Part shown: positions 3,485 to 26,579 of the stretch, in pieces
How the letters are laid out: each line of letters opens with the position of its first letter
How positions within the stretch are numbered: position 1 is the first letter of the stretch
NCBI GenBank assembly: GCA_947177925.1
Contig: CAMWWJ010000002.1
Span: 1 to 36,547 of the forward strand
DNA length: 36,547 nucleotides
Direction of reading: 5' to 3'
Origin: an uncultured Lachnospiraceae bacterium
Lineage (GTDB): Bacteria; Bacillota; Clostridia; Lachnospirales; Lachnospiraceae
Notes under the pieces: generated by a model
What the model was told of the DNA's origin: nothing
Seen by the model: only the letters and a program-made list of their open reading frames with translations
The model's database searches: none
Program-made: the position numbers and the translations under genes

Positions 3485-3535
3485 AAAGGCAGATGAAGGC
3501 AGCAGTGCAGGGTGCTCTGCTGTATGAAAGAAAGC

Positions 3536-4099
3536 ATGAAGAAACTAGTAATTGTATTGGAGGAGAAAAATCAGCAGCTTTTCGGTTCCCTGGTGGAACA
3601 AGTAAAGACGGCCGCAAAAGCGCTGGATATGGAAACGCTTTATTTTCTCCAGCGGGATAACGAAAGTAGTCATACATATGAGCAGTTAAGAAACATGGAT
3701 GCAGACTATCTAGTGTCTTTTGATATGGCAGGATTTGAAATGAGTACTCTTACGGAAGATTCCGCATATAATCTGCTTTATGCTAAGCAGATGCATATTC
3801 TTTTTCAAAATGATCAGAAATACCGAAAGTATCTGCAGCAGGATCTGGCAATGAATTTGTTTCTGTTCATAGGAGATGAATGTCTATTCAAGCAATATAA
3901 GCAGGAATATCCCCATATACTGAATCTGGAAGCTATGCCGCCTTTGGCTCTGGGGGAAAAACTGACAGAGGAACAGCAGAGGAAAAATGGAGAGGCATTA
4001 AGATGGGTCATAGAAAAAGTATATAACGAAATAGAAACAGCCGGTATTCTTAAAGACCGGCTGTTTGAAACATCTGGTTTATGCGCATTGGATAAGTGA
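3536..4099 (+). CDS. Conserved small protein of unknown function, paralog of the 8658..9155 product
   Basis: Shares DMAGF(E/Q)M(S/N)TL..(A/G)YNLLYAKQMHI and YPHI.N with 8658..9155; start set at MKKLVIV by alignment with the paralog (MKKAMIV). Confidence 0.75.
   Translation: MKKLVIVLEEKNQQLFGSLVEQVKTAAKALDMETLYFLQRDNESSHTYEQLRNMDADYLVSFDMAGFEMSTLTEDSAYNLLYAKQMHILFQNDQKYRKYLQQDLAMNLFLFIGDECLFKQYKQEYPHILNLEAMPPLALGEKLTEEQQRKNGEALRWVIEKVYNEIETAGILKDRLFETSGLCALDK
4035..4066. terminator. Convergent (bidirectional) hairpin terminator
   Basis: Perfect 11-bp inverted repeat AAACAGCCGGT-attcttaaag-ACCGGCTGTTT at the convergent ends of 3536..4099(+) and 4050..5225(-). Confidence 0.6.
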
Positions 4100-5225: not shown

Positions 5226-5314
5226 TTGCGTCTCCCTTCGAATTATTTCTGCTGATATTCTAGCATAATCTTTCATTTATTTAAATAAAAAATAATAAAA
5301 AATAAAATAAGGTA

Positions 5315-5341
5315 TAAAGTATCAAAGAAAGATTCCGATAT
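5315..5341 (+). promoter_or_regulatory. Sigma-28/SigD-type promoter of flagellin copy 1
   Basis: TAAA-N15-TCCGATAT against the consensus TAAA-N15-GCCGATAA/T; AT-rich stretch just upstream. Confidence 0.8.
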
Positions 5342-5432: not shown

Positions 5433-5464
5433 GCGGCAGGGAAGCCGCATGAAATTCAAGGAGG
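5433..5464 (+). promoter_or_regulatory. Candidate CsrA-binding hairpin plus SD site in the flagellin 1 leader
   Basis: GCGGC-AGGGAA-GCCGC hairpin with GGA in a 6-nt loop, then AAGGAGG Shine-Dalgarno; same layout as the B. subtilis hag leader. Confidence 0.5.
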
Positions 5465-5472
5465 AATATATT

Positions 5473-6288
5473 ATGGTAGTACAACACAATCTTAGAGCAA
5501 TGAACTCAAACAGAATGTTAGGATTAACAGCATCATCTCAGTCTAAGTCAACAGAGAAATTATCTTCTGGTTATAAGATCAACCGTGCAGCAGACGATGC
5601 AGCAGGATTAGCAATTTCCGAGAAGATGAGACGTCAGATCAGAGGACTTACACAGGCTACTGCAAATGCACAGGATGGTATTTCCATGGTGCAGACAGCA
5701 GAAGGTGCGTTAAACGAAGTTCACGACATGTTACAACGTATGAATGAGCTTGCTGTAAAGGCAGCTACAGGTACAGAGCAGTCTGAAGACCGTTCTTACA
5801 TCAACCAGGAAGTAACTGCATTAAAGGCAGAAATCGACAGAGTTGCAGCAACAACTACTTTCAATGAGTTGAACTTATTGAATCAGACAACTACTTTCAG
5901 TCTTCAGGTTGGTTCTGAAAGCGCTTCTGTAAACCAGATTGATGTAACGGTTGCAGCTATGAACACAACTGGACTTAGCATTAACGGTACAACAGTAGAT
6001 ACTGTAGCCAATGCAAAAACTGCTATTGATTCAGTTAAGAAGGCAATCACAGCATTGAATAAGCAACGTTCCGATCTTGGTGCACAGCAGAACCGTTTAG
6101 AGCATACAGTAAACAACTTGAACAACGTTGTTGAAAACACCACATCAGCAGAATCTGCTATTCGTGATACAGATATGGCAACTGAAATGGTTAGATATGC
6201 AAACAACAACATTCTTGCACAGGCAGGTCAGGCAATGTTGGCACAGTCTAATCAGGCTAACCAGGGCGTATTATCCTTACTTCAGTAA
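5473..6288 (+). CDS. Flagellin, copy 1
   Basis: MVVQHNLRAMNSNRMLGLTASSQSKSTEKLSSGYKINRAADDAAGLAISEKMRRQIRGL and C-terminal MVRYANNNILAQAGQAMLAQSNQANQGVLSLLQ; SD AAGGAGG upstream of the ATG at 5473. Confidence 0.98.
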   Translation: MVVQHNLRAMNSNRMLGLTASSQSKSTEKLSSGYKINRAADDAAGLAISEKMRRQIRGLTQATANAQDGISMVQTAEGALNEVHDMLQRMNELAVKAATGTEQSEDRSYINQEVTALKAEIDRVAATTTFNELNLLNQTTTFSLQVGSESASVNQIDVTVAAMNTTGLSINGTTVDTVANAKTAIDSVKKAITALNKQRSDLGAQQNRLEHTVNNLNNVVENTTSAESAIRDTDMATEMVRYANNNILAQAGQAMLAQSNQANQGVLSLLQ

Positions 6289-6449: not shown

Positions 6450-6476
6450 TAAAGTATAAAAAAAACATTCCGATAT
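6450..6476 (+). promoter_or_regulatory. Sigma-28/SigD-type promoter of flagellin copy 2
   Basis: TAAA-N15-TCCGATAT, spacer GTATAAAAAAAACAT. Confidence 0.8.
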
Positions 6477-6567: not shown

Positions 6568-6599
6568 GCGGCAGGGAAGCCGCATGAAATTCAAGGAGG
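6568..6599 (+). promoter_or_regulatory. Candidate CsrA-binding hairpin plus SD site in the flagellin 2 leader
   Basis: Same sequence as 5433-5464 at a constant offset of 1135 nt. Confidence 0.5.
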
Positions 6600-6607
6600 A
6601 ATATATT

Positions 6608-7423
6608 ATGGTAGTACAACACAATCTTAGAGCAATGAACTCAAACAGAATGTTAGGATTAACAGCATCATCTCAGTCTAAGTCAACAGAGAAATTATCT
6701 TCTGGTTATAAGATCAACCGTGCAGCAGACGATGCAGCAGGATTAGCAATTTCCGAGAAGATGAGACGTCAGATCAGAGGACTTACACAGGCTACTGCAA
6801 ATGCACAGGATGGTATTTCCATGGTGCAGACAGCAGAAGGTGCGTTAAACGAAGTTCACGACATGTTACAACGTATGAATGAGCTTGCTGTAAAGGCAGC
6901 TACAGGTACAGAGCAGTCTGAAGACCGTTCTTACATCAACCAGGAAGTAACTGCATTAAAGGCAGAAATCGACAGAGTTGCAGCAACAACTACTTTCAAT
7001 GAGTTGAACTTATTGAATCAGACAACTACTTTCAGTCTTCAGGTTGGTTCTGAAAGCGCTTCTGTAAACCAGATTGATGTAACGGTTGCAGCTATGAACA
7101 CAACTGGACTTAGCATTAACGGTACAACAGTAGATACTGTAGCCAATGCAAAAACTGCTATTGATTCAGTTAAGAAGGCAATCACAGCATTGAATAAGCA
7201 ACGTTCCGATCTTGGTGCACAGCAGAACCGTTTAGAGCATACAGTAAACAACTTGAACAACGTTGTTGAAAACACCACATCAGCAGAATCTGCTATTCGT
7301 GATACAGATATGGCAACTGAAATGGTTAGATATGCAAACAACAACATTCTTGCACAGGCAGGTCAGGCAATGTTGGCACAGTCTAATCAGGCTAACCAGG
7401 GCGTATTATCCTTACTTCAGTAA
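6608..7423 (+). CDS. Flagellin, copy 2 (protein identical to copy 1)
   Basis: Identical translated sequence in the ORF track; own promoter, leader and terminator. Confidence 0.98.
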   Translation: MVVQHNLRAMNSNRMLGLTASSQSKSTEKLSSGYKINRAADDAAGLAISEKMRRQIRGLTQATANAQDGISMVQTAEGALNEVHDMLQRMNELAVKAATGTEQSEDRSYINQEVTALKAEIDRVAATTTFNELNLLNQTTTFSLQVGSESASVNQIDVTVAAMNTTGLSINGTTVDTVANAKTAIDSVKKAITALNKQRSDLGAQQNRLEHTVNNLNNVVENTTSAESAIRDTDMATEMVRYANNNILAQAGQAMLAQSNQANQGVLSLLQ

Positions 7424-7484: not shown

Positions 7485-8657
7485 ATGGGTAAAACTATTT
7501 TATTTTGTAATCATTATCCACCGGGACTGAAGGATGCATGGGAGAAGCAGGGATTTCAAGTAGTTGAAGTCATAGTGAGGACTGATACAATGAAACTGGA
7601 AGAGATCATTTCCTGTTTTCGTGCTTATCGGCAGAAACAGAATCTTACATTTGTATTTTCATGGGACTTCACACCTGACATTTCAGAAGCCTGCCATGAA
7701 CTTGGGATTTGCTATATTAGTTGGATAGTGGATTGTCCTCATACTGCTCTTTGGGCAAAATCCGCAAGGTATCCCGAAAACCGAATTTTTGTATTTGATT
7801 ATAAGCTTTATGAAATGCTGGATCAGAGAGGGCTTAAGCATATTTGGTATCTTCCGCTTTCAGCAGATGTGGATAGTTTTGAAAAGTGCATTCAAATGGC
7901 CGATATGAAAGAAAAAGAAAAATATAGTTCAGAAGTTTCTTTTGTAGGCAATCTTTATAATGATCCGGCGCATAGCCTGTATGACAGCATAACCTATCTG
8001 CCACCATATCTGAAAGGATATTTTGATTCCTTAATCATGATTCAGAGAAAAATGTGGGGAATGAATCTATTTGAAGAGGCAATCAACAATCAGGCATGGG
8101 ACATGCTAAGGAATTATGTGAACTGGGACCTGGGAGATAAGTATGAGGATGCTTATGAATTATCAATGATTAATATGCTTTATCAAAAAGTGGCGCAGCT
8201 AGAGCGTAAAGAAGTTTGCAACTATTTGACGGAACATTTTGATTTTGCACTGTATACCGGAGGCAATACAGATTTTAATCCAGCGTTAAGAAATAGGGGA
8301 AAGGTTGATTATTTATCCCAGATGCCATTAGTGTTCCATTATAGTAAGATAAATATAAACATTACCTTGCGTTCCATTACATCTGGTATTCCATTACGTG
8401 TAATGGACATACTGGCATGTGAAGGATTCTTATTGACAAATTATCAAAGCGAAATAGCAGAATACTTTGAAGATGGCAGGGAATTGGTTATTTATGAAAA
8501 TTTTGAAGATATGTATGAAAAAATAGCATATTATCTTCAACACGAGGACGAACGGAAACAAATTGCCCATGCCGGATATGAAAAGGTAAAGGAACAATTT
8601 AATTATACAAGAGGAATCGATAAAATCGTGCAGGCATTGGATATGGAGACTATGTAA
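7485..8657 (+). CDS. CgeB/DUF3880-like glycosyltransferase (subfamily B)
   Basis: CYISWIVDCPHTA, FALYTGGNTDF, SKININITLRSITSGIPLRVMDILACEGFLLTNYQ; RBS TAGGAG upstream. Confidence 0.75.
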   Translation: MGKTILFCNHYPPGLKDAWEKQGFQVVEVIVRTDTMKLEEIISCFRAYRQKQNLTFVFSWDFTPDISEACHELGICYISWIVDCPHTALWAKSARYPENRIFVFDYKLYEMLDQRGLKHIWYLPLSADVDSFEKCIQMADMKEKEKYSSEVSFVGNLYNDPAHSLYDSITYLPPYLKGYFDSLIMIQRKMWGMNLFEEAINNQAWDMLRNYVNWDLGDKYEDAYELSMINMLYQKVAQLERKEVCNYLTEHFDFALYTGGNTDFNPALRNRGKVDYLSQMPLVFHYSKININITLRSITSGIPLRVMDILACEGFLLTNYQSEIAEYFEDGRELVIYENFEDMYEKIAYYLQHEDERKQIAHAGYEKVKEQFNYTRGIDKIVQALDMETM

Positions 8658-9155
8658 ATGAAAAAGGCAATGATCGTATGGGATAAGACGAAACAAAAGG
8701 AATATGAGAACATTCTTCGTATGCTTACGGAAATCTTTAAAGAAAAGGATTTTCAGGTAAAAACTATCATGTTTGGAGAAATGGGCAGGCCTGATCATGC
8801 ATATTTTGCAGAAATGCAGGAGTATGATGGTGACTATATATGTAGCCTGGATATGGCGGGATTTCAGATGAATACATTGTTAGAATGTACCGGCTACAAT
8901 CTTCTCTATGCCAAGCAGATGCATATTGTAATCGATGAACAATGCTTTGTGAAGTATGCGGAAGGAAAATTTGCTATCAGTTTATATTTTTTTCTGCCGG
9001 GCAGTGTAGGGAAATGGCAGAAACGATATCCACATATATCCAATATAGTTGCATATGAGAAAATGAATCCAAAGGATGCAAATAGAGAAATCCTGCAGAA
9101 CATGATAGACTATTTTCTGGATGAAACCGAAAAAAAGTGGGAGGATGAAAGATGA
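8658..9155 (+). CDS. Conserved small protein of unknown function, paralog of the 3536..4099 product
   Basis: DYICSLDMAGFQMNTLLECTGYNLLYAKQMHIVI; shares the 11-aa block YNLLYAKQMHI with its paralog; start abuts the upstream GT and ATGA overlap with the downstream GT. Confidence 0.8.
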   Translation: MKKAMIVWDKTKQKEYENILRMLTEIFKEKDFQVKTIMFGEMGRPDHAYFAEMQEYDGDYICSLDMAGFQMNTLLECTGYNLLYAKQMHIVIDEQCFVKYAEGKFAISLYFFLPGSVGKWQKRYPHISNIVAYEKMNPKDANREILQNMIDYFLDETEKKWEDER

Positions 9156-10309
9156 AGCTCCTCATTTATCAATGGAATTCCTATTTTCAGTATGATATTT
9201 ATGAAATATGTAAAGAGAGCAATATAACCTTTGAAGTCTTTTCGTGGACATTCCAATCCAAAAATGAAGACGAGAAATTTGAGCAATGGTTTGAGGAACA
9301 CATGGACTGCAGGACATTTGATGCTTTGTTAAGTGTGAATTATTGGCCTTTATTAGCACAAGTATGTCATCGGCATGGAATAAAATACATTGCATGGTGC
9401 TATGATTGTCCGTTAAATGTAGAAAAGATAGAGGAAACATTGGGTCATCCTACTAATCACGTATTCTTTTTTGATAGAATGCAATTTCAAAAATACAGGC
9501 AGGAGGGTTTTGAGACGGTTTATCATCTGCCTATGGGAGTAAACAGTACAAGATTAAGGAATCTTCAAATTTCAAAGGAAGAATACGAAAAATATAAAGC
9601 ACAGGTTTCCTTTATTGGGAATCTATACAATTCCAGGCTGCAGGAAATACTTGCGCCAATGAATGACTATACAAGAGGCTATCTAAAGGCGGTCATGGAT
9701 CTGCAGTCACAGATATATGGATATTATTTCTTTGATGAAGTAATATCGGAAAAATTGATGCAGGATATCAACCGCCAGTATTTGGAGAAAGAGCCTGATA
9801 CGAAATTTCAACTTAGCAGGGAAGCGCTGACCTTTGCCATGGCTAGTGAAATTACAAGGCAGGATAGGATTATATTGCTGAATTTATGCGGCAGAAGGTA
9901 TCATACAAAGTTTTATTCTTATGAAGATAGCGAATTGATTAAAAATATAGAAAAATGCAAAGCATTAGATTATATATGGGAAATGCCTAAAATGTTCTTT
10001 TGTTCTAAAATTAATTTAAATCCATCATTAAGAATCATACAAAGCGGTATTCCTCTTAGAGCATTGGATATTATGGGGGCAGGCGGATTCTTATTGTCCA
10101 ATTACCAGGAAGAATTGGTGGAATTATATGAGAATGAAAAAGAAATGGTAGTCTATGAAAGCATTGAGGATGCCCTGGAAAAAGCGGAGTTCTATTTAAG
10201 GAATGAGGATATTCGTTTAAAAATTGCAGAGAACGGAAGAAAGAAAACATTGGAGCAGCATAGTCTGCAGCAGTGCATGAAAACTATTTTTGAGATATCC
10301 GGACTTTAG
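9152..10309 (+). CDS. CgeB/DUF3880-like glycosyltransferase (subfamily A)
   Basis: KYIAWCYDCPLN...HPTNHVFFFDRMQFQKY; SKINLNPSLRIIQSGIPLRALDIMGAGGFLLSNYQEELVELY. Confidence 0.77.
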   Translation: MKLLIYQWNSYFQYDIYEICKESNITFEVFSWTFQSKNEDEKFEQWFEEHMDCRTFDALLSVNYWPLLAQVCHRHGIKYIAWCYDCPLNVEKIEETLGHPTNHVFFFDRMQFQKYRQEGFETVYHLPMGVNSTRLRNLQISKEEYEKYKAQVSFIGNLYNSRLQEILAPMNDYTRGYLKAVMDLQSQIYGYYFFDEVISEKLMQDINRQYLEKEPDTKFQLSREALTFAMASEITRQDRIILLNLCGRRYHTKFYSYEDSELIKNIEKCKALDYIWEMPKMFFCSKINLNPSLRIIQSGIPLRALDIMGAGGFLLSNYQEELVELYENEKEMVVYESIEDALEKAEFYLRNEDIRLKIAENGRKKTLEQHSLQQCMKTIFEISGL

Positions 10310-10324
10310 GATGAGGTTACATTT

Positions 10325-11488
10325 ATGAAGATTTTATTATATTATTGGAAGGCATACAGCAATTTCTTTTTGCAGATACAGTTGGAAAAACTGGGTTATA
10401 CCGTTATCCCATGGAAGGACGAAGGGCTTATCCGGGATGAGGAAGAATCTCTGGAACGCTTAAGCGAAGAGTTGAAAAAAGGGTATCAGGCGGTTTTTTC
10501 ATATAATTATTTTAAGACAGTTGCGATTGCCTGTAACAGACAGAATACATCTTACATATCGTGGATACAGGATTCTCCCTTATTATCCCTGTATGATAAT
10601 ACTGCTTATCTGGAAACAAATTATTTCTTTTGCTTTGATTATGAGCAATATGAAGCTATGAAAACAAGGGCAGTTACCCATGCTTATTATTTTCCTTTGG
10701 CTACGGATGTGAAAGCATTATCTGAGGCGGCAGATTGTATACCGGAAAAAGAAGAATATTTAGCGGATGTGAGTTTCGTAGGTTCTCTTTACTCAGAAAG
10801 AAATATGTTTTCTGCTCTTAACAATCTTCCAGATTTTCTCAAAGGATATATAGAGGGAATCTGCCAGGCACAGCTTAGGATTCCCGGCATTCGTTTTTCG
10901 GAAGTAAGAGTTCCTGAAAATATTATGGATACATTAAAAAAGATACTGGTGTTTCATGGCATGGAGGAAACCAAGCTGACATATGAGATATTAGTGGAGA
11001 ATCTAATTGATCGGCAAGTAACCGCTGTGGAAAGAAATCAAATGATACAGAGACTTTCTGAACAATTTGATTTCAAATTATATACAGGAGCAGATACTTC
11101 TCACTGTCCTCAAGTAAAAAATTGTGGAACAGTGGATTATTATCAAGAAATGCCAAAGGTATTCCGCCAGTCGAAAATCAATATTAATATTTCCCTGCGC
11201 TCCATACGTACCGGAATCCCTTTAAGGATATTGGATATTCTTGCATCCGGCGGATTTGTGCTTACTAATTATCAGGAAGATTTATATCGGTATTTTGAAG
11301 AGGGAAAAAGCATAGTAACTTTTTATAATCTGGATGATATGATAGAAAAAATACATTATTATTTAGAGCATGAAGAGGAGCGAAAGAGTATTATGGAAGA
11401 GGGCAGGAAAATTGTATGTCAGGAATTTGATTTTCCGATATTGCTTCCGCAAGTACTGGAATTGGCAGGAATCAATCATAGGCTTTAA
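10325..11488 (+). CDS. CgeB/DUF3880-like glycosyltransferase (subfamily B)
   Basis: SYISWIQDSPLLSL; FKLYTGADT; SKININISLRSIRTGIPLRILDILASGGFVLTNYQEDLYRYF. Confidence 0.77.
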   Translation: MKILLYYWKAYSNFFLQIQLEKLGYTVIPWKDEGLIRDEEESLERLSEELKKGYQAVFSYNYFKTVAIACNRQNTSYISWIQDSPLLSLYDNTAYLETNYFFCFDYEQYEAMKTRAVTHAYYFPLATDVKALSEAADCIPEKEEYLADVSFVGSLYSERNMFSALNNLPDFLKGYIEGICQAQLRIPGIRFSEVRVPENIMDTLKKILVFHGMEETKLTYEILVENLIDRQVTAVERNQMIQRLSEQFDFKLYTGADTSHCPQVKNCGTVDYYQEMPKVFRQSKININISLRSIRTGIPLRILDILASGGFVLTNYQEDLYRYFEEGKSIVTFYNLDDMIEKIHYYLEHEEERKSIMEEGRKIVCQEFDFPILLPQVLELAGINHRL

Positions 11489-11518
11489 AAGGCTGATGCT
11501 ATAGGACACCAGCCTTTT
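11487..11518. terminator. Convergent hairpin terminator
   Basis: AAAAGGCTG...CAGCCTTTT perfect 9-bp stem between the convergent ends of 10325..11488(+) and 11499..12653(-). Confidence 0.65.
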
Positions 11519-12653
11519 GGAAAATAGCAGCAATTTTGGGGGGATAAGAAAATTCAGAAACAACTTTTTCATATCCGTTTCTGGCGATTTTCTCCCGTTT
11601 TGCATCGTGCTTTAAGTAATAATCAGCTTTGCATAATGCATCTTCCATGCTTTCATAAAGAATGACATTTTCGCCGTCAGTAAAATATTCAGCAAGTTCA
11701 GGCTGCCAATTGCTGAAGAGAGTGCCGCCACAGCTTAAGATATCCAGTGCCCTTAAGGGAATGCCGGACTGAATGCTTTTTAAGGTTGGATTTAAATTTA
11801 ATTTACTGCACCGGAAGATCTTAGGCATTTCGGTAAAGTAATGGGCAGTACCGCTATAGGTAAGGTGATTTAACAATTCGGACTTGCTGTTAGAATAGTA
11901 AGTTACCTGATGGGTTCGTCCTAACATATTTAAAAGTATAAGGCGCTCTGTGCGGGTAACCTGTTTATTGATATTCCGAATCAGTTCCTCCCTGTTATTG
12001 GTGTCGAACTTGGACTCAAAGCGGGAAAAATATTCATCCATGTGGGCGCTGAAATCATCGGTTATCATTTCCTCAATGAAATTGTAGCCATAAACTCTGA
12101 GCTGGGCTTCTACAATGGCATTGATGTAACCTTTCGTATACTCATTTTGTGCAGATAAAAACTGGGGCAGAAAGGACTCGTATAACTGGCCTACGAAAGC
12201 GATTTCTGCACCATAGCGCTTTTTATCTGCCTGGGAAACAGTAAGCTTCTGAGTGCGTTCCGTATTGACTGCAAGGGGCATGTGATAGGCATGCGCTACC
12301 CCTGATTTATTCAAACGTTCTGTATCCAACCGGTCAAAGAGGAATATATAGTTGGTGGGATATTGATAATATTCAATCCGGGTTGTATTGATGGGACTGT
12401 CATAAATCCAGGAAATATACTTTTTATGAAATTTATGACACAACTTCGCAACCAAAGGATGAAAATTGGTACTCATGACAAAGTCATATTGATGCTCCGT
12501 AAGTTCTATGGAGAATTTTCTTTCAAAGAAGTCATCTTCATAAATGTTGCGGAACTTATACATCAGATTTTTACAGTGGCAGCCTTGTCTTTCCAGACAG
12601 TAAATTAAATCGCCCTGGGTGTAGGAACCCATATCGTACAATAAAATATTCAT
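11499..12653 (-). CDS. CgeB/DUF3880-like glycosyltransferase (subfamily A, very close to 4050..5225)
   Basis: MNILLYDMGSYTQGDLIYCLERQGCHCKNLMYKFRNIYEDDFFE..NFHPLVAKLCHKFHKKYISWIYDSPI.. aligns almost collinearly with the 4050..5225 product. Confidence 0.8.
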   Translation of the reverse strand: MNILLYDMGSYTQGDLIYCLERQGCHCKNLMYKFRNIYEDDFFERKFSIELTEHQYDFVMSTNFHPLVAKLCHKFHKKYISWIYDSPINTTRIEYYQYPTNYIFLFDRLDTERLNKSGVAHAYHMPLAVNTERTQKLTVSQADKKRYGAEIAFVGQLYESFLPQFLSAQNEYTKGYINAIVEAQLRVYGYNFIEEMITDDFSAHMDEYFSRFESKFDTNNREELIRNINKQVTRTERLILLNMLGRTHQVTYYSNSKSELLNHLTYSGTAHYFTEMPKIFRCSKLNLNPTLKSIQSGIPLRALDILSCGGTLFSNWQPELAEYFTDGENVILYESMEDALCKADYYLKHDAKREKIARNGYEKVVSEFSYPPKIAAIFQKAGVL

Positions 12654-15021: not shown

Positions 15022-15190
15022 GTGGATTCTCCTTTAATTTCATAAATGAACGTATATTTAGTGGCTTTTCATGAAAAGTATTATATAATAGTTTCCCAAA
15101 AAAGAAAAGATGGGATTTTCATGGAAAGCGGTTTGCATATGTGATAAAATGATTTTCAGGGGAATCGTAGAAAAGAAAGTAGACATAAAT

Positions 15191-15217
15191 TAAGGATATT
15201 TTAAAATATGCCGATAT
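15191..15217 (+). promoter_or_regulatory. Sigma-28/SigD-type promoter upstream of the sugar/radical SAM operon
   Basis: TAAG-N15-GCCGATAT; perfect -10 and 3/4 match to the -35 at canonical spacing. Confidence 0.7.
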
Positions 15218-15273
15218 ATACTCATATAATATGTTTCATGGATGAAATGAATGAAAAACAGGGAGGTTGCAAT

Positions 15274-15330
15274 ATGGATACGATACAAGAGCAGATAAAA
15301 GAGGGAAAGTAGTTATCTGCTCTTATTTTG
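15274..15330 (+). promoter_or_regulatory. Leader mini-ORF (MDTIQEQIKEGK) overlapping a strong hairpin; candidate attenuator or sRNA 3' end
   Basis: GGGAGG RBS, ATG at 15274, TAG at 15310-15312; perfect 12-bp stem AAGAGCAGATAA (15287-15298)/TTATCTGCTCTT (15313-15324) followed by ATTTTG. Confidence 0.55.
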
Positions 15331-15380
15331 TATATTGCAAATTTTCATAAAAAGAAAAGATATAAAGGAAGAGGAAAAAT

Positions 15381-16205
15381 ATGTGTTTATTTATTACAGC
15401 AGAAATAGGAATTAATCATAATGGTGATTTAAAAATCGCAAAGGAATTGATCGACCTTGCAGTAGAAGCTGGATGTGATGCTGTGAAGTTTCAAAAAAGA
15501 ACCATTGATAAGGTCTATACGCAGGAGTATCTGGCAGGTGAGAGAATCAGCCCATGGGGAACTACTCAAAGGGAACAGAAGGAAGGACTGGAATTTGGGT
15601 TGAAAGAGTATCAGGAAATTGACAGATATTGTAAAGAAAAAGGAATTGAGTGGTTTGCTTCAGCCTGGGATTTGGATTCGCAGAAATTTCTGCAGCAGTT
15701 TGATTTAAAATATAATAAGGTTGCATCAGCCATGTTGGTAAACGACGAGCTGTTAGAAGAGATTGCCAATGAGAAAAAGTATACCTTCATTGCAACCGGA
15801 ATGAGCACTTATGACGAAATCGATCATGTAGTAGATATTTTTAAAAAATATGATTGCCCCTTTGAACTGATGCATTGTAACAGCACCTACCCTATGAAAG
15901 AAGAAGATGCCAATTTAAAGGTAATGTACCAGTTAAAAGAAAGATACGGCTGTAAGGTCGGTTACAGCGGGCATGAGGAAGGAAACTTAGTCTGCACTTG
16001 CGCAGCGGCAATGGGGGCCACATCCATAGAAAGGCATATCACGTTGGACAAGACCATGTATGGAAGCGATCAGAAAGCATCGATTGAGCCAAGGGAGCTT
16101 AAGGAGCTGGTAAGGACGATCAGGGAAGTAGAAAAGATTCTCGGAACTGGAGAAAAGCTTCTGTCAGAGGCAGAGCAGGAAGTAAAGGCAAAGTTAAGAG
16201 GATAA
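15381..16205 (+). CDS. NeuB/LegI/PseI-family ulosonic acid synthase-like protein lacking the C-terminal SAF/antifreeze region
   Basis: FITAEIGINHNGDLKIAKELIDLAVEAGCDAVKFQKRT; ATGMSTYDEI; MHCNSTYPM; GYSGHEEG; ERHITLDKTMYGSDQKAS; only 274 aa. Confidence 0.88.
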   Translation: MCLFITAEIGINHNGDLKIAKELIDLAVEAGCDAVKFQKRTIDKVYTQEYLAGERISPWGTTQREQKEGLEFGLKEYQEIDRYCKEKGIEWFASAWDLDSQKFLQQFDLKYNKVASAMLVNDELLEEIANEKKYTFIATGMSTYDEIDHVVDIFKKYDCPFELMHCNSTYPMKEEDANLKVMYQLKERYGCKVGYSGHEEGNLVCTCAAAMGATSIERHITLDKTMYGSDQKASIEPRELKELVRTIREVEKILGTGEKLLSEAEQEVKAKLRG

Positions 16206-16208: not shown

Positions 16209-17285
16209 ATGATAAAGCTGGTTATTTTTGATATAGATGGAGTCATAACCGATGGCTCCATTATTGTTGATGTAGCAGGAAGAGAGCAAAAAAAAATAAA
16301 TTTAAAAGATGTGGATGCCATTTTCCAGATAAAAAAGGATGGTTATCGGTTGGCTGCCATAACGGGAGAAGATTCAGAGATTGTAAATTATTTTGAGCAG
16401 AGATTCCCGTGGGATTATTTTTACAGAGGCAATAAGAGTAAGACGGATGCCATGAAAGAAATACAGCAGAAAGAGAATCTTTCAAGCAGGGAAATATGCT
16501 ACGTGGGAGATGGAAAGTATGATATAGCCCCCCTTGCTTATGCAGGGCTTGGAATCTGCCCAAGGGATGCCATTGACAAGGCAAAAGAGGCGGCAGATGT
16601 GATTTTACAAAAGGGTGGTGGACAAGGCTGTCTGTGGGAATTGATTGATATCTTAAAAAGATATAATAATAAAGAGGTTCCAGAAAACTATTTTTACCAA
16701 AGACTAGCTGAGCATACGAATATCTTCAAAGAAATGGGCTCTGATATGGAGCTGATACAAAAGGTAATGGGTCTGGCAGAAGATATTTATAACATTCTTC
16801 GAAACGGAGGAAGGCTGTTTTTATGTGGAAATGGAGGAAGTGCAGCAGATGCTCAGCATATTGCCACAGAGTTCATCAGCCGCTTCTTTCATGAGCGGCC
16901 CGCATTGAATGCAGAGGCGCTGACGGTAAATACATCTACCTTGACTGCAATCGGCAATGATTATAGCTATGAACGGATTTTTGTGAGGCAATTGGAAGCA
17001 AAAGCGCAGAAGGGCGATGTGCTGATTGGGATTTCCACCAGTGGGAAATCCAAGAATGTGATGGAAGCATTAAAATATGGAAGAGATCATGGAATGAAGA
17101 CTGCTATGTGGATGGGAAATTTTGATTCTGCACAGGTGAAAGAATTTTGTGATTATGTTATAAGAGTACCTTCTGATATTACCCCAAGGATACAGGAAGC
17201 CCATATTTTTATTGGACATACTCTGGCGGAATTTGTGGAACAGAAGGTTGTTTTGGAGGAAAATCGGGATGGTAAAAGTATCTGA
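16209..17285 (+). CDS. Fusion protein: KdsC/YrbI-like HAD phosphatase + GmhA-like SIS isomerase
   Basis: N-term FDIDGVITDGSIIVD...ITGEDSEIV...CYVGDGKYDIAPLAYAGLGICPRDA; C-term LFLCGNGGSAADAQHIATEFISRF...GISTSGKSKNVMEAL. Confidence 0.88.
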   Translation: MIKLVIFDIDGVITDGSIIVDVAGREQKKINLKDVDAIFQIKKDGYRLAAITGEDSEIVNYFEQRFPWDYFYRGNKSKTDAMKEIQQKENLSSREICYVGDGKYDIAPLAYAGLGICPRDAIDKAKEAADVILQKGGGQGCLWELIDILKRYNNKEVPENYFYQRLAEHTNIFKEMGSDMELIQKVMGLAEDIYNILRNGGRLFLCGNGGSAADAQHIATEFISRFFHERPALNAEALTVNTSTLTAIGNDYSYERIFVRQLEAKAQKGDVLIGISTSGKSKNVMEALKYGRDHGMKTAMWMGNFDSAQVKEFCDYVIRVPSDITPRIQEAHIFIGHTLAEFVEQKVVLEENRDGKSI

Positions 17286-19017
17286 TTATGTCATGGAGTT
17301 TCTAAAGGAAAAGGGGATAAAGGAAATCTTTATGCTGCCGGGTGGCGGCGCTATGCATCTGCTTGACTCTTTGGGAAAATCTGGCATTGAGTATATTTGT
17401 TTTCAACATGAACAGGGAGCTGCCATTGCGGCAGAAGCCTATGGGCAGCATACAAATGAACCGGGGTGTCTTTTGGTCACATCTGGTCCGGGCGCCACAA
17501 ATGCCATAACAGGTGTTACTGCAGGCTGGATCGATTCCACACCGATGTTTGTTATATCAGGGCAATCCAAAAGGGCGGATTTAGTGGGAGACAAGCAGGT
17601 TAGGCAGATTGGCTCGCAAGAAGTTCAGATAATTGATATGGTAAAACCCATTACCAAATATGCAGTGCAGATTATGGAACCGGCAGAGATTCGATATCAT
17701 TTGGAAAGAGCCTATTATGAATGTACTAACGGACGTCCGGGACCTGTATGGCTTTCCATTCCTTTAGATGTACAGGGAGCCATCATTGATGAAGTGAATC
17801 TGAAGGGATTTTTACCAGAGGAAGTCAGAAAAAGCTGTATTTCCAATGATGTTTTGAAGGTAGTGGATTTGTTAAAGGACGCAAAAGCGCCTCTGTTTAT
17901 AGCAGGGAACGGTATTAAGCTTTCTGGAGCAACGGAAATATTCTATCAGCTTTTAGAACAAATAAACGTGCCGGTTTTAACTACGTGGAAGACCATTGAC
18001 ATGTTTGCTGAGGATAATCCGGTTTATGTAGGACATCCGGGCATTATGGGCGATCGAGGAGCAAATAAAATTTTACAGAAAGCCGATTTGCTGATTTCGT
18101 TAGGAAGTCGGTTAGATACCAGCATTACTGCATTTAATGATGCACTTTTTGGAAAGAATGCGAAAAAAGTAATTGTAGATATAGATGTACACGAAATAAA
18201 CCGGATGCAAATGAAAAAGGAAGTGGAAATCGTTTCGGATGCAGGGGAGTTTCTAGCTTGTCTGACAGAGGTCATTGGGAAAGAAAGCTTACCGGACTGG
18301 AATGAATGGCTTACTTCTTGTAAGGAGCTTAGGGCTGGCTATCCACTTGTTACGGATAAGCACAGAGATACAGGAGATTATGTAAGCGCTTATTATTTTA
18401 TTGATGAACTTTGTAAGGTGCTTAGGGCAGATGATGTAATTGTACCGGAAAGCTCCGGTGGAGCAGGAGAAATTACTTATCAGGCATTTCAGATAAAAAA
18501 AGGACAGAAGATGAAAAATGCAGCAGGATTGGGATCTATGGGTTTTGGTCTGCCTTATTCCATTGGTTCCTGTATTGCCAATGACAAAAGGAGAACTGTT
18601 TTAATCAATGGAGATGGTGCGTTTACCTTAAATATTCAGGAATTAGAGACTATGCATCGATTAAAGCTGCCAATTAAGATGTTTATCTTAAGCAACGGCG
18701 GATATGCCAGCATAAGAAGCATGCAGCGGGGAAATTTTGAAGGCAGATATGTGGCGAGCAGTGAGGACAGCGGATTTACGATTCCGGATATCAGTGCAGT
18801 GGCAAAGGCTTATGGCTTTCAAACCTGTTCCATGAAAAGTAATGAAGAAATGCTTCAAATGCTGCCTAAGATTATGGCAGATGATGAGCCGTTGCTTTGT
18901 GAAGTGTTTGTTTCACCGGATGAAACGGTTTGGCCGAGAGTAAAGGCTGTAGTTCTGCCGGACGGGGGCATGAAGTCGGGAGAGCTGGAGAATATGTGGC
19001 CTTATGAAGAAGAATAA
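17269..19017 (+). CDS. Thiamine-pyrophosphate-dependent enzyme, acetolactate synthase-like
   Basis: ATG at 17269 with TTGGAGGAAAA upstream; FQHEQGAAIAAEAYG, LVTSGPGATNAITGV, NGDGAFTLNIQELETMHRLKLPIKMFILSNGGYASIR (TPP motif). Confidence 0.9.
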   Translation: MVKVSDYVMEFLKEKGIKEIFMLPGGGAMHLLDSLGKSGIEYICFQHEQGAAIAAEAYGQHTNEPGCLLVTSGPGATNAITGVTAGWIDSTPMFVISGQSKRADLVGDKQVRQIGSQEVQIIDMVKPITKYAVQIMEPAEIRYHLERAYYECTNGRPGPVWLSIPLDVQGAIIDEVNLKGFLPEEVRKSCISNDVLKVVDLLKDAKAPLFIAGNGIKLSGATEIFYQLLEQINVPVLTTWKTIDMFAEDNPVYVGHPGIMGDRGANKILQKADLLISLGSRLDTSITAFNDALFGKNAKKVIVDIDVHEINRMQMKKEVEIVSDAGEFLACLTEVIGKESLPDWNEWLTSCKELRAGYPLVTDKHRDTGDYVSAYYFIDELCKVLRADDVIVPESSGGAGEITYQAFQIKKGQKMKNAAGLGSMGFGLPYSIGSCIANDKRRTVLINGDGAFTLNIQELETMHRLKLPIKMFILSNGGYASIRSMQRGNFEGRYVASSEDSGFTIPDISAVAKAYGFQTCSMKSNEEMLQMLPKIMADDEPLLCEVFVSPDETVWPRVKAVVLPDGGMKSGELENMWPYEEE

Positions 19018-19030
19018 AAGGAGAAGGAAG

Positions 19031-20113
19031 ATGAAGGCAGATGTACATGGAAGCTGTGTCAGTTTTAGCATATTAAAGAAAGAGACGGAAGAGGGATGTC
19101 AGATTAAGTTAGAATGTTTAGATAATAATTTTTTCTTTTCCCATATTAACATTGCAGGTTCCATGGGAAATAGAATTGATGTAGAGCCTACAGAAGAGGA
19201 GTTATCTGTTTTTGAGGAGCACTTGAGAAGAAATTTGATAACAGATTTAAATAAAACGGTGGTTGAAGAATTATTGCTATCAGATGCAGAGTATCTGCTG
19301 GTAGACTTTTATGATTTTGCCAGAGTGCAATGGGCATACAGGGGAGGCAGCTTTACCCATACCGTTTTCTTAAACGAAGCAAAAGACTATTATCAAAAGG
19401 TCCAGGATCAGATGGAAGGACTGTTTCGCTGGATTAATCTTCCCACGTTTCTTTATTATGATAAGGTAGACGAATACTTCCGGATTATGGTAGAAAAATA
19501 TGGAAAAGAACATATTATTCTGAATCGTATATATTTTAACAGATATTATATAGACGAGAATCATACCTTAAAAGAGATTAGGAAGAATATTGACTGGGTA
19601 GGCAGTTATAGGGACAACGATGTAATACGCAGATTAGAGGAGCATGTGATAAAGAAGTTTGGAATTAAAAGCATAGATGTTTCTAAATATTTTGTTGCAG
19701 ATTACAATTTTGGAAAGGATATTCTGGCTGTGCATTATGAGGAGGAATACTATCATTTGGCAGGAAGGATTATATCCAAACTTATTTTAGGGGAACCGGT
19801 GGCTACAGATAAGCTGGATTTGGAAAGCTTTAAAGCAAAATTAGATTGGAATCAGCAGATTTTAGCAGGAGAATCGAAAGGATATTTGTCCTGTACCCAA
19901 TCAGTTTTTCACTTATATGAGCCATTAGATATGCTGTTGTCAGTACTGGAAAATGATGAAATTAATTCTTGTAAAGATGTAATTATTCGCTTGTATGAAT
20001 GGGTTTTTGAAGAACCGGAATATTTTTACAATCATGAAATTCCTGTAGAAGTTATTCAAAATAGACTTTTGGATAAATTTGACAGTTGGATTGCGGAAAA
20101 AAGTAAAAGCTAA
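19031..20113 (+). CDS. DUF6270-like protein
   Basis: ATG at 19031 with GGAGAAGGAAG upstream; N-terminal DVHGSCVSFSI resembles the GSCVSRD motif of DUF6270. Confidence 0.6.
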   Translation: MKADVHGSCVSFSILKKETEEGCQIKLECLDNNFFFSHINIAGSMGNRIDVEPTEEELSVFEEHLRRNLITDLNKTVVEELLLSDAEYLLVDFYDFARVQWAYRGGSFTHTVFLNEAKDYYQKVQDQMEGLFRWINLPTFLYYDKVDEYFRIMVEKYGKEHIILNRIYFNRYYIDENHTLKEIRKNIDWVGSYRDNDVIRRLEEHVIKKFGIKSIDVSKYFVADYNFGKDILAVHYEEEYYHLAGRIISKLILGEPVATDKLDLESFKAKLDWNQQILAGESKGYLSCTQSVFHLYEPLDMLLSVLENDEINSCKDVIIRLYEWVFEEPEYFYNHEIPVEVIQNRLLDKFDSWIAEKSKS

Positions 20114-20134: not shown

Positions 20135-21265
20135 ATGAGAAATGTTGATTCTAAAAACGAAACAGTTATTTTGTATGGGGCAGGTACCCAGAATCTTAGA
20201 ATGGCTTTTCAACCAATTACCTCTGCCGGATTTAAAGTCACGGCTATTGTGGATAAAGATGAAAAGAAACAGGGAACCTTGTTTTATGGCATTAGGATTA
20301 TAGCGCCCGAACAATTGCAGAAGTATGAAGAAAAACGGGAAAAATATCGAATTATTATAACCATACGTACGGAAGAAACAGTTTTGGAAGTGAAGAATGA
20401 GCTTTCCAGATTAAAGTATGCAGAGATTTATTCGTTCCATGAATTCATTGAATCAGAAAAGTTGAACGGCAAGGTAAAAAGATTTGCCTGTATCATGTTC
20501 CATTTGGTTGACCATTGCAATATGAGCTGTGTCCGTTGTTCTCATTTTTCACCCTTAGCGCCTAGAGATGGTTTCTATTTAGAGGAAGGGGTATTTGAAC
20601 GGGACTGCAAAAGATTGTCAGAATTAACAAAAGGAGATATAGACGAGATACAGCTATCAGGAGGAGAGCCTACGCTGCATCCAAAGGTTCATATCTTCCC
20701 ATATATTGTCAGGAAATATTTTCCGATGACGAAAATTATCATGATTACAAATGCAACGAGGATTCAGGATATGCAGGATGAATTTTTTCAGTCTTGTAGA
20801 GAGAATGATGTGGAATTATGGATATCCAAGTATCCGATAAAATTGGATTATAATAGCATTTTCCACAGCTTAAGGTCTAAAGGAATATCAGTTACATTTG
20901 GCAATACCGGCAACTCGGAAGACAAGCCAAAAGAAATGTGGGGGCTTCCTATGAGGTTGGAAGGCGGAATGGATAAACAGCACAATTTTGACTGCTGCCT
21001 TTGCATGCAGTATATTGTAAGAGATGGAATCATATACCCATGTGCGAATAGCGCATATATTGATTTATTTAATAATTATTTTCAAAAAGAGCTTCCCGGC
21101 CCTAAAGTAAATGGTGTAGATATTTATAAGGTAAATGATTTGGAGGAATTGACTGAAAAGATATCACAGGCTATACCTTTATGTGAATTTTGCGATGCAC
21201 AAAACCGTCTGCCGGGCATTCCATGGCGTGTATCCCAAAAAGAGATCAGCGAATGGATTATATAG
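20135..21265 (+). CDS. Radical SAM protein with N-terminal Rossmann-like module
   Basis: N-term VILYGAGTQNLRMA...VTAIVDKDEKKQGTLFYGIRIIAPEQL; CNMSCVRC (CxxxCxxC), QLSGGEPTLHP; C-terminal Cys cluster CCLCMQYI..IYPCANSA. Confidence 0.87.
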   Translation: MRNVDSKNETVILYGAGTQNLRMAFQPITSAGFKVTAIVDKDEKKQGTLFYGIRIIAPEQLQKYEEKREKYRIIITIRTEETVLEVKNELSRLKYAEIYSFHEFIESEKLNGKVKRFACIMFHLVDHCNMSCVRCSHFSPLAPRDGFYLEEGVFERDCKRLSELTKGDIDEIQLSGGEPTLHPKVHIFPYIVRKYFPMTKIIMITNATRIQDMQDEFFQSCRENDVELWISKYPIKLDYNSIFHSLRSKGISVTFGNTGNSEDKPKEMWGLPMRLEGGMDKQHNFDCCLCMQYIVRDGIIYPCANSAYIDLFNNYFQKELPGPKVNGVDIYKVNDLEELTEKISQAIPLCEFCDAQNRLPGIPWRVSQKEISEWII

Positions 21266-21288
21266 CAAATGAAGGGAGAAGCAGGAAC

Positions 21289-22437
21289 GTGAAGAGTTAT
21301 AAAAAAGGACATGAACTGGATGAATTGGCAAAGATTTGGCTGGATGACGATAATATTTTTTATGTATGGGGAGCAGCAATAGCAGGTACAAAATTTTTGC
21401 AGCAATATAAAGATGAAATTTGTATCAGGAAAGTTTTTGACAGTGATCCGGAAAAGCAAGGTAAAATGTTAGAGGACAGGGAGATTGTCCGGTTTGATCA
21501 AAATTGTATGGAGCCGGGCTCCAAGATTATTGTATGTACGAATTTTTACAGGGAAGTAAAGCAGGAATTGTTGCGGTATGGATTCAAGGAAAATATTGAT
21601 TTTATAGAGAGAAAGAAGTTTAAGGGCATAAGGTATTATTATAATGAAAATAAGGTCTATTTATATAGAGTTGACTTATCAGTTACGAATAAATGTACAT
21701 TGCGTTGTGAAAAATGTAATATGCTGATGCCATATTTTCATGCACCTCAGCATAAGAGCCTGGAAACGATAAAACAAGATCTGGATATGCTTTTTCGTTG
21801 GGTAGATGTAGTGGAACTTTTCGATATTTTAGGTGGGGAGCCATTGCTTTATCCTGATTTGGTGGAACTATTGCAATATATAAAAGAACACTATCAGGAA
21901 AAAATCGAAGCGATACATATGTTTACAAATGGCACATGTAATTTGAGTGAAGAGTTATTAAGAATCTCAAGAGAGATGTCAATTATTTACGATATAAGTG
22001 ATTATACTCAGGAGTTGCCACAGTTGACAGAACGAGTGGATGAATTTGAAAGTAAGTTGCAGGAGCATAAAATAGTAGCCAACAGGGATAAGCAGAAAAT
22101 TTGGTTGGATTTTGGTTATCCAGAGGTAAATCATGAAGACTATCCGGAAGAAAAGAGAATAGCCCATTTTCACGGCTGTGAGGCTACTTTTAGAGGACTG
22201 TATGACAAGAAGTTGTATTATTGCCATTTAGAAGCTAGTGCGGTGCAGGCAGGACTTTTTGAAGAAAGTGAAGATGACTTTGTGGAGTTGGACAAGTTAA
22301 GCGAAGAGAATAAGATTGAAGTGGTTGAGCTGGATCAGGGATATAGCCAAAAAGGTTATCCGGGTTTTTGTTTAAGATGCGACGGCTGTGGAAGCAAAAA
22401 GAGAATACCAGTGGCGAAGCAGAAGGGAAAAGGATGA
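21289..22437 (+). CDS. Radical SAM protein with N-terminal Rossmann-like module
   Basis: FYVWGAAIAGTKFLQQY...VFDSDPEKQGKMLEDREIV; CTLRCEKC, ILGGEPLLYPD; likely GTG start at 21289 (upstream GGGAGAAGCAGG), alternative ATG at 21253. Confidence 0.82.
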   Translation: MKSYKKGHELDELAKIWLDDDNIFYVWGAAIAGTKFLQQYKDEICIRKVFDSDPEKQGKMLEDREIVRFDQNCMEPGSKIIVCTNFYREVKQELLRYGFKENIDFIERKKFKGIRYYYNENKVYLYRVDLSVTNKCTLRCEKCNMLMPYFHAPQHKSLETIKQDLDMLFRWVDVVELFDILGGEPLLYPDLVELLQYIKEHYQEKIEAIHMFTNGTCNLSEELLRISREMSIIYDISDYTQELPQLTERVDEFESKLQEHKIVANRDKQKIWLDFGYPEVNHEDYPEEKRIAHFHGCEATFRGLYDKKLYYCHLEASAVQAGLFEESEDDFVELDKLSEENKIEVVELDQGYSQKGYPGFCLRCDGCGSKKRIPVAKQKGKG

Positions 22438-23876
22438 TGACAGAAAGCGAATATATCGTTGATACCTTTCAAAAGGCTTTTGGGAAAGACCGTTCTAAAC
22501 GGATATGTCTTTATGGAACAGGAAGATTTACAAAACTGCTGTTAGAGAGGCTTGAGGGTTTTCATATTGTGGGAGTGGCAGATTTTGGGTATGAAAAAAA
22601 TACGTGGGAGGGTTATCGGATTCTCTCAAAAGAAGATTTGGAAGAATGGATCGATATCCTTGTACTGATTGCGAATCCGGCAAATATACATTTAGTCTAT
22701 AAAAAGGTTAAGCAGCTTCCTGAGAAAATTAAAATCTATACGATAGAAAAAAGGGATGTCAGAGAGGAAGAGCAGTTTCATGAACAAGCAACATTACAGG
22801 AAGCAGCGGAATGTCTGAAGCAATATGCGATTTCAGAAGAAGACAAGCTTGTGTTGGAACGTTTTTTAGGAAAACTGTTATATGACACCGGATGTGAAAT
22901 ACATGATGTGTATTCATTTATAAATATTTTTGTAGCCCCATGGCTATTAAGTTATTTTGCGTGGTTCTTAAATAGAGTAAGAGAATCAAAGGCAGAGATA
23001 GTCCTGTTGCCATCTAGAGATGGCTATTTATTTTACAGGTTGTTTGGGCTTTTGCAGGATTGTGAATCGCTTCCGAAAGCAATATATTTTTATACTTCTA
23101 GAAGGTGCATAGCAGTGGCGTCTATTGAAAATGAACAAGATGTAGAAGTAATTGCCGGGCAGTTGTATAAAGGGAACAAAAGAACTTTTTTAGAAGAAAG
23201 ATTTGGCATTAAGGTTTCCTTGAAGGAGGAAGAACTTTTGCTGGACAATGTAGAACTGGCATTGCGTTATAAAGAGAAGATATTGGAAAAAGCCAGAATG
23301 GAACGGGCATGTTTAGAAACATACCTGCTAAAAGAGGGGATTGATAAAAGCAAAAATATATTGTTGTTTGATTTTGTAGGAAGGGGAACAATTCAGTACT
23401 GTTTGGAAAAAATCATGGGAAGATCACTGGATTGTCTGTATTATTTCAGAGTGCGGGATGAGGGCAGTATAGAAAGAGAACGAACAAATGGAGTTATATC
23501 TTACAGTGGGGAAGGAAGCCTCTATATGACAAAATTGTTCACACAGCGCAATCAAGTATTGTTCGAAGCAATTGTTACAGCACCTCATGGAATGGTAGAG
23601 AGAATTGGAAAAGATGGGAATCCTTTTTTCAGAAGAGAAAAAATTGATAAAAGTTATTTTGCTGAAGTAGAAAAAGCATGCATGGATTATTATAAGGAAA
23701 TGTGTTTGGGAAAAATATTACCGGAAGAAATAAATTTGGAACTGGTAGACCGAATGGTAGAACTGATTGAATACGATTGTATTTTCATTGATGAAAAGGT
23801 AAAGAGGTATTTTACAGTAGATGATCCCTATCAGAACATGCATACAAATCCATTTATGGAAGGGTTCATAAAGTAA
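22437..23876 (+). CDS. Rossmann-like module + uncharacterised 'SRDGY' domain protein
   Basis: ICLYGTGRFTKLLLERL...; LPSRDGYLFYRLFGLLQDC..YTSRRCIAVASI; LLFDFVGRGTIQYCLEK shared with the C-terminal half of 33524..35656. Confidence 0.65.
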   Translation: MTESEYIVDTFQKAFGKDRSKRICLYGTGRFTKLLLERLEGFHIVGVADFGYEKNTWEGYRILSKEDLEEWIDILVLIANPANIHLVYKKVKQLPEKIKIYTIEKRDVREEEQFHEQATLQEAAECLKQYAISEEDKLVLERFLGKLLYDTGCEIHDVYSFINIFVAPWLLSYFAWFLNRVRESKAEIVLLPSRDGYLFYRLFGLLQDCESLPKAIYFYTSRRCIAVASIENEQDVEVIAGQLYKGNKRTFLEERFGIKVSLKEEELLLDNVELALRYKEKILEKARMERACLETYLLKEGIDKSKNILLFDFVGRGTIQYCLEKIMGRSLDCLYYFRVRDEGSIERERTNGVISYSGEGSLYMTKLFTQRNQVLFEAIVTAPHGMVERIGKDGNPFFRREKIDKSYFAEVEKACMDYYKEMCLGKILPEEINLELVDRMVELIEYDCIFIDEKVKRYFTVDDPYQNMHTNPFMEGFIK

Positions 23877-23922
23877 GTACTATTGGATGGAAATAAATGC
23901 CAGGAGCAGAAAGGAAAAGAAA

Positions 23923-25035
23923 ATGGATAGTAAAAGCTTGGAGAAGGTTAAAGTGAGGACCTTGGAAGATGTATACAATTTTTCTTCCATTGTTTTATGG
24001 GGAGCTGGTTTTGCGTATGAGGATACTATTGAGCTAATTGGGAGAGGAAAAATAACTGCAGTTTTTGATAATGATCAAGAGAAGTGGGGAAAGACAATAT
24101 GTGGATTTCCTATTAAGTCTCCTGTGACAGATTTAAAAAAATATGTTACGAGGGATACAGCAGTTATTATTTCAACAAACGGATATCAATATGAGATTGC
24201 AACAGATTTAACAACGAATAAGGGAATCATGGAAAACCAGATTTTTTGTAATTCTAATAAGGTGGTAGAGAAATGGAGATATCGTCCGGAAATTATTTTA
24301 GGACATATGGAGCAGATTCAAAAAGTGTATGATAAATTAGCAGATAAGGAATCAAGAGAATATTATATTAGTTTTTTGAAAGCATGTCTGACAAGAAATC
24401 CATTTTTTTATAAGGATAATCCGAGATGCGTAAATAATTATGAATATAAAACGGAGCTTGCAAATCTGGGTCTGCATGGAGGAGAAGTTATTTTAGATTG
24501 TGGCGCATTCAATGGTGATACTGCAAGACTGTTCAGGAAAATTACAAATAACAATTGCGAAGTATATTGTTTTGAGCCAGTAACAGAAAACTATAATGAA
24601 ATGGTAGAATGGATCAAGAATGAACATATTGAAAAGGTTCATGCTATACATGTGGGAGTTGGTAAGGAAAAGTATGTAGATAAGGTTTATTCTACAGAAG
24701 AAAAAACAACAAAAGGAGCAGTGGGAACAAATCGGTTCAACAGCAATAGCCCGGTAGTCAGTGAAATACAGGTGGATTCCCTGGATAATATGCTGGGGGA
24801 AAAGAAAGTGGACTACATAAAAATGGATATTGAAGGAGCCGAAATGGAGGCATTAAGAGGCGGGACAAAAGTAATCGAAAGGAATCGCCCTCAGATGCTT
24901 ATTAGTGCATATCATAAGATTTCAGATATGTGGGAAGTTCCTGGATTTGTACTGGATCTTCATCCGGATTATCAAGTCTTTTTGGGGCATCAACCGCATG
25001 CGCCATATGAACCCGAATTTTTATTTATTTCATAG
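23923..25035 (+). CDS. FkbM family methyltransferase with N-terminal Rossmann-like module
   Basis: IVLWGAGFAYEDTIELI..AVFDNDQEKWGKTICGFPI; VILDCGAFNGDTARLFRKI...YCFEPV...VDYIKMDIEGAEMEALRGG. Confidence 0.85.
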   Translation: MDSKSLEKVKVRTLEDVYNFSSIVLWGAGFAYEDTIELIGRGKITAVFDNDQEKWGKTICGFPIKSPVTDLKKYVTRDTAVIISTNGYQYEIATDLTTNKGIMENQIFCNSNKVVEKWRYRPEIILGHMEQIQKVYDKLADKESREYYISFLKACLTRNPFFYKDNPRCVNNYEYKTELANLGLHGGEVILDCGAFNGDTARLFRKITNNNCEVYCFEPVTENYNEMVEWIKNEHIEKVHAIHVGVGKEKYVDKVYSTEEKTTKGAVGTNRFNSNSPVVSEIQVDSLDNMLGEKKVDYIKMDIEGAEMEALRGGTKVIERNRPQMLISAYHKISDMWEVPGFVLDLHPDYQVFLGHQPHAPYEPEFLFIS

Positions 25036-25058
25036 AATAGTTGAAAGGATAAAACGAT

Positions 25059-26564: not shown

Positions 26565-26579
26565 TTGGAGTTGAATGAT

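Follow-up and report, generated by a model that had tools for sequence, protein, structure and literature searches.

A predicted SigD promoter and CsrA-type leader ahead of a sugar gene run in a Lachnospiraceae flagellar locus

A long run of sugar genes beside flagellin raises the question of whether the run is switched on together with the flagellum or is a generic capsule locus. The question arose in a fragmented 3.26-Mb Lachnospiraceae genome (G000, 91.7% complete), one whole contig of which forms the window, that is, the entire stretch of 36,547 nucleotides that was analysed. Upstream of the sugar run the window carries flaG, fliD, fliS and a flgN-like gene (late flagellar genes, 34-3484), two flagellins of identical sequence and several glycosyltransferases, all of the features described here being on the forward strand unless stated otherwise. 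A preliminary description of this DNA had proposed a co-oriented, nearly gapless run reaching the window end, and such a run indeed extends from 15381 to 36547 with gaps of about 0-35 nt. It opens with a NeuB-family synthase without the C-terminal SAF part (15381-16205), a fused KdsC-type phosphatase and GmhA-type sugar-phosphate isomerase (16209-17285) and a thiamine-diphosphate (TPP) enzyme of the acetolactate-synthase type (17272-19017), followed by a DUF6270 protein (19004-20113) and two radical-SAM proteins (20135-22437). Next come a protein without assignment, an FkbM methyltransferase, a GT2 glycosyltransferase, a GDSL esterase, a second FkbM methyltransferase and a radical-SAM/SPASM protein (22434-29844), and lastly a hexapeptide acyltransferase, a pyruvyltransferase-family protein, PglD-N, radical-SAM and HAD proteins and an NAD-epimerase that runs off the contig (29802-36547); in the sister genome G268 the NAD-epimerase is followed by an NTP-transferase, a DegT aminotransferase and a GDP-mannose-dehydratase type enzyme. 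The first enzyme missed both the NeuB and the PseI cut-offs (268.6 of 399.65 and 188.7 of 340.25 bits), and a standard sialic or pseudaminic acid pathway was rejected on these family cut-offs.

The preliminary description had reported a motif, TAAG-N15-GCCGATAT, at 15191-15217 with the spacing of flagellin promoters, and this was confirmed exactly. The full site, TAAGGATATTTTAAAATATGCCGATAT, is a predicted SigD (sigma-28) promoter with a predicted start near 15224, and like it, flagellin 1 (5315-5341) and flagellin 2 (6450-6476) each have a predicted SigD promoter, in both cases TAAA-N15-TCCGATAT. The pattern TAAR-N15-BCCGATAT was matched three times in the window against 0.03 matches expected, while none of 100 shuffles gave three or more, and no match was found on the other strand of the window. 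In other genera of the family many flagellins carry TAAA/TTAA-N15-NCCGATAT 105-190 nt upstream, and the spacing of 15 is the same as in these promoters of relatives (family type TAAA-N13..16-GCCGATAW). Since the site should not be judged by its own window, a scoring matrix of 31 columns was built solely from 13 flagellin promoters of other genera. With this matrix the two flagellin promoters scored 30.3 and 29.4 bits and the 15191-15217 site 17.4 bits, making it the third-best sigma-28 site of the window behind those two; the next window site reached 10.4 bits, and no match in 1.5 Mb of simulated sequence reached 17.4 bits. In the whole genome, the exact pattern occurred nine times as against five for a reversed-pattern control, and since four of the nine matches fall within unrelated coding sequence, on the scale of the genome the motif is weak evidence by itself and needs other support. 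Two other SigD-like sites in this genome are intergenic, one ahead of a protein with EF-hand-like repeats (C287:267-293, L009) and one ahead of a short ABC-ATPase/receiver pair (C104:3949-3975, L008), and the genes behind them are candidate SigD genes.

Among the six genomes of the genus set (G000, G268, G299, G300, G301 and G302) the site is kept in four, namely G000, G268, G299 and G301. The spacer and the -10 are identical in G268, G299 and G301, and the -35 is TAAA in G268 and TAAG in the other three; at the same locus G268 has TAAA-N15-GCCGATAT, which at 24.5 bits is a better match than the window site. The gene behind the site is NeuB in two genomes and the TPP enzyme in the other two (G299 and G301), where this promoter, followed by some 150 nt of the leader, precedes the TPP-enzyme gene, and no close ortholog of the window NeuB was found in either of these genomes. 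Since promoter and leader are kept although the first gene differs, they go with a position within the flagellar locus, whichever gene comes first. In G302 the TPP cassette is present without promoter or leader, and in G300 no cassette was found in the region past the flagellin and glycosyltransferase genes. All six genomes have a FliA/SigD gene that scores above the family cut-off, that of the window genome reaching 259.8 bits (TIGR02479, C8:17459-18121).

A search for the motif upstream of orthologous synthase genes had also been suggested, and the motif was found there within the genus (G268) and not outside it. The site was rejected as a feature of NeuB orthologs in other genera, where none was convincing within 500 nt, and no SigD site of at least 15 bits was found at the cassette heads outside the genus; matches of at least 15 bits around those cassettes were one inside a gene (L023) and one unrelated, on the reverse strand (L013). 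Thus the motif follows the locus of the genus, not the synthase. Since the four leader-bearing genomes are close relatives, part of the conservation is shared descent. An invertible promoter was rejected because the site is not bordered by long inverted repeats.

Between the promoter and the first gene lie a small ORF, a large hairpin and a CsrA-type element, all of which the preliminary description overlooked. The first predicted CsrA-type site is the hairpin TGTTTC-ATGGAT-GAAATG (15232-15249), in which a hexaloop of the ANGGAN form, AUGGAU (15238-15243), is closed by C-G; it resembles both the CsrA SELEX consensus RUACARGGAUGU and the ANGGAN hexaloops (PMC7652899). The hairpin is weak, at -2.5 kcal/mol as against -8.6 for flagellin. 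The second predicted site, AAC-AGGGAG-GTT (15257-15268, letters AACAGGGAGGTT), overlaps the ribosome-binding site of the small ORF, which carries ACAGGGAGG 22 nt past the first GGA; the second GGA thus lies over the ribosome site (AGGGAGG) at a spacing within the range of about 18-22 nt used to define a two-site element. The same two-site layout, with a GGA spacing of 20, is predicted in the leaders of flagellin 1 (5433-5464) and flagellin 2 (6568-6599). The GGA motifs of the window flagellins are at -36 (hexaloop) and -16 (ribosome site) and those of the sugar-operon leader at -37 and -15, positions that fit the CsrA sites of Clostridioides difficile fliC at -45 to -34 and -20 to -9 (PMC11898703); in Campylobacter jejuni flaA the spacing of the CsrA sites is 21 nt (PMC4894983).

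The layout is rare. It was found at three of the 35 window starts examined, the two flagellins and the sugar-operon leader, the other 32 being without it, and simulated sequence gave 0 two-site elements per Mb. In the six genus genomes a pattern search with a stem of at least 5 matched solely flagellin leaders or the sugar-operon leader. A search of both strands of 80 other loci, which amount to 1.4 Mb of DNA or 2.75 Mb counted by strand, gave two matches. One was a flagellin leader (L018), and the other lay at the start of NeuB in L010, the closest ortholog from another genus; there ATTTCATGGATGAAAT, the hairpin, and then CAAGGAGG stand directly ahead of NeuB. A tyrosine-recombinase gene adjoins that CsrA-type leader (L010, 9041-9652, reverse strand), and no clear invertible repeats were found there. 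The leader was rejected as an element extending beyond the genus, a DNA search of 397 family genomes giving only short chance matches, and as a known RNA family, the only Rfam matches being chance ones far below the cut-off.

Downstream of the two sites, the 12-codon leader ORF MDTIQEQIKEGK (15274-15312) lies within a long terminator- or attenuator-like hairpin of 25 pairs (15267-15340). The ORF has 12 codons in G000 and G268 and is in another frame in G301 (27 aa) and G299 (26 aa). A conserved leader peptide was rejected, as a 5-nt indel shifts the frame and alters the end position of the ORF while the pairing is kept. In four genomes the hairpin folds better than shuffled sequence (z of -5.7, -5.5, -5.5 and -4.8), 90 of 90 scored cells pair, and all five stem substitutions give G-U pairs; sliding the hairpin partner, as a control, breaks the pairing. 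As no pair has changed on both sides, this conservation of pairing is support and not proof. The inner 12-bp stem (15287-15298/15313-15324; -12 to -14 kcal/mol) is followed by ATTTTGT, and with this short T-tract it could act as a leaky terminator.

Taken together, the best explanation, and one that we consider probable, is that of a flagellar glycan operon read by SigD and provided with a flagellin-like FliW-CsrA leader, so that it would be tied to filament assembly at two levels. At the sequence level it is based on the promoter, the two-site element, the hairpin, their conservation, the synteny, sigD in all genomes of the genus and fliW and csrA in G301. SigD would transcribe the sugar run from 15191-15217 once the hook is complete, as it does for flagellin, and CsrA, by analogy with flagellin, would bind both GGA sites and keep the leader ORF untranslated until flagellin export frees FliW, which then removes CsrA. 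A ribosome on the leader ORF would then cover the 5' arm of the 15267-15340 hairpin, as it would in every genome that has the leader, and keep the terminator-like structure open, so that transcription could proceed into the sugar genes and these would be expressed together with flagellin. The binding of SigD and CsrA, the attenuation step and flagellin as the glycan acceptor are inferred. Weighing against this reading are the score of the site, which is lower than those of the flagellin promoters, its -35 of TAAG in three of the four genomes, the weak first hairpin, the short T-tract, the indel that moves the end of the leader ORF, the leaderless TPP cassette of G302 and the lack of such a site at the NeuB cassettes searched outside the genus. 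Since the sugar run starts with a flagellin-type on-switch and a predicted RNA brake of the flagellin kind, the cell probably makes its flagellar coat sugars in step with flagellin.

SigD might, on the other hand, transcribe the operon from this promoter while the leader is an ordinary 5' end, its GGA hairpin a by-product of a strong ribosome site without a CsrA role and its long hairpin serving only to protect the mRNA. In favour of this, the promoter evidence stands by itself, the first hairpin is weak, and the ribosome site serves a tiny ORF that does not keep its frame. An ordinary 5' end would leave unexplained, however, why a two-site layout of matching spacing is absent from the other window starts examined, why in six genomes, with a stem of at least 5, it falls only on flagellins and on this leader, and why a similar hairpin lies directly on the NeuB start of another genus; we consider it unlikely.

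It is less likely still that sigma-A transcribes the operon, using overlapping -10-like sequences, and that the SigD-like motif is incidental. Two such sequences pass a loose scan, TTAAAA-N18-TATAAT ending at 15230, whose TATAAT at 15225-15230 could serve sigma-A, and an extended -10 site, TG-TAAAAT, at 15122-15150, which resembles sequence upstream of the G302 cassette. Sites of this kind are no commoner than in shuffles, however (38 found, 40.3 expected), and the 15122 site is absent in G268 and G299, where the SigD motif is invariant save for its -35.

A similarly doubtful suggestion is that the product of the run is a capsule or another surface polymer, its place beside flagellar genes being due to chance. 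The run has the kinds of genes found in surface polysaccharide loci, and the trio of NeuB, phosphatase/isomerase and TPP enzyme is often not near flagellin outside the genus, where a number of trios lie in loci without flagellin in view. Against this, the cassette is within the flagellar locus in all four leader-bearing genomes, the sites sitting just past its flagellin/glycosyltransferase part, and in G301 a single contig carries the order fliW-csrA-flaG-fliD-fliS-flgN-flagellins-glycosyltransferases-leader-TPP cassette. The trio is also found within 10-20 kb of flagellin in L013, L018, L025, L028 and G264, and a Maf-type transferase is present in the same block in G268 and G299, and Maf also occurs in L013. 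The sugar genes of the window adjoin flagellin and filament genes, as expected of a flagellar glycosylation locus; as for a Maf system, no Maf (MptE-like) transferase was found in G000 (91.7% complete). Flagellar control of the sugar run, which the preliminary description had preferred to a generic capsule, is therefore well supported, though short of proof, by the conserved site, the neighbourhood of flagellin, FliD and FliS, the presence of sigD and the CsrA-type leader, all of them read from sequence.

Several other features of the flagellar locus were observed. The two window flagellin genes (5449-6288 and 6584-7423) encode identical proteins and each has its own near-identical leader, and the G268 contig begins just past this two-flagellin point. 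The flagellins are surrounded by DUF3880/Glyco_trans_1_2 glycosyltransferases (4050-5276 and 7485-12653), and in the Maf-less G000 the DUF3880 enzymes may be the flagellin transferases. Small proteins that are paralogs of each other and match no Pfam family (3512-4099 and 8658-9155) each lie beside a DUF3880 transferase and a flagellin. Pfam CsrA and FliW genes adjoin flaG in G301 and were not located in the fragmented G000. A DUF1919 gene is found just ahead of the leader/TPP genes in G301 (C22) and G302 (C1), unlike in the window.

It is also rather improbable that the leader (about 15224-15340) is itself the product of interest, a SigD-driven short RNA with two CsrA sites and a terminator-like hairpin that would mop up CsrA and thereby exert feedback on the translation of flagellin, the sugar operon being expressed by read-through; if true, it would be a CsrA-titrating leader in a FliW-bearing Gram-positive. 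Most improbable of all is that the motif is a piece of a mobile block of sequence and was placed here by an accident of recombination. A 60-bp copy does lie behind an AAA-ATPase/PDDEXK gene at the operon end in G268, and the flanks of this gene match window 15100-15156 and 15159-15219, but in the G268 copy the -10 reads GCCGATAC and no leader follows, while the four cassette-head copies keep GCCGATAT and the full leader. The leader was likewise rejected as a repeated or mobile element, being single-copy in G000, and only the 60-bp promoter part is repeated, in G268. The AAA-ATPase/PDDEXK_9 gene (G268 C42:36917-38756, L121) lies at the far end of the operon and is absent from the window site, and its flanks may be sites of recombination at the two ends of a cassette that can be exchanged.

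The preferred reading, a SigD-read glycan operon with a flagellin-like leader, has relatives among known systems. In C. difficile the flagellar glycosylation genes CD0241-CD0244 belong to the SigD regulon (PMC3865298, PMC7438776), and the SigD dependence of flagellar glycan genes has been established there (PMC3865298). Like CD0241-CD0244, the glycan genes described here adjoin flagellin and have a TAAA and CCGATA-type promoter, with SigD dependence predicted; unlike them, they form a larger, exchangeable cassette preceded by a SigD site of its own and carry a CsrA-type leader, whereas the accessible text on C. difficile describes CsrA sites on fliC only (PMC11898703). An upstream GGA hexaloop hairpin and a GGA at the ribosome site, about 20 nt apart, are shared with the FliW-CsrA flagellin leaders of Bacillus subtilis hag, C. 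difficile fliC (PMC11898703) and C. jejuni flaA (PMC4894983), but the start that would be controlled here is that of a 12-codon ORF ahead of sugar genes. CsrA control through a short upstream ORF is known from Escherichia coli iraD (PMC5574718), where, as predicted here, a CsrA site lies over the ribosome site of the leader ORF. In iraD the ORF stop overlaps the next start, whereas here the long hairpin and about 69 nt lie between, which makes attenuation more likely than direct coupling. In Helicobacter pylori the flagellin glycosylation gene jhp0106 (Maf) is under CsrA/RpoN, CsrA acting indirectly through the sigma factor RpoN (PMC5368276); an effect of CsrA on such a gene is predicted here too, but through a direct leader element. 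A search of the openly accessible literature turned up no direct CsrA leader in front of an operon for flagellar glycans. That SigD controls such genes is already known from C. difficile, and what appears to be new is the predicted CsrA leader of the flagellin kind that follows the promoter.

In glycosylated flagella the supply of sugar has to match that of flagellin. If the leader works as predicted, the FliW-CsrA checkpoint of flagellin export would also set the sugar supply, and this control would persist even as species swap the sugar cassette downstream of it. Motile Lachnospiraceae are abundant gut bacteria, and their flagellins are immune ligands.
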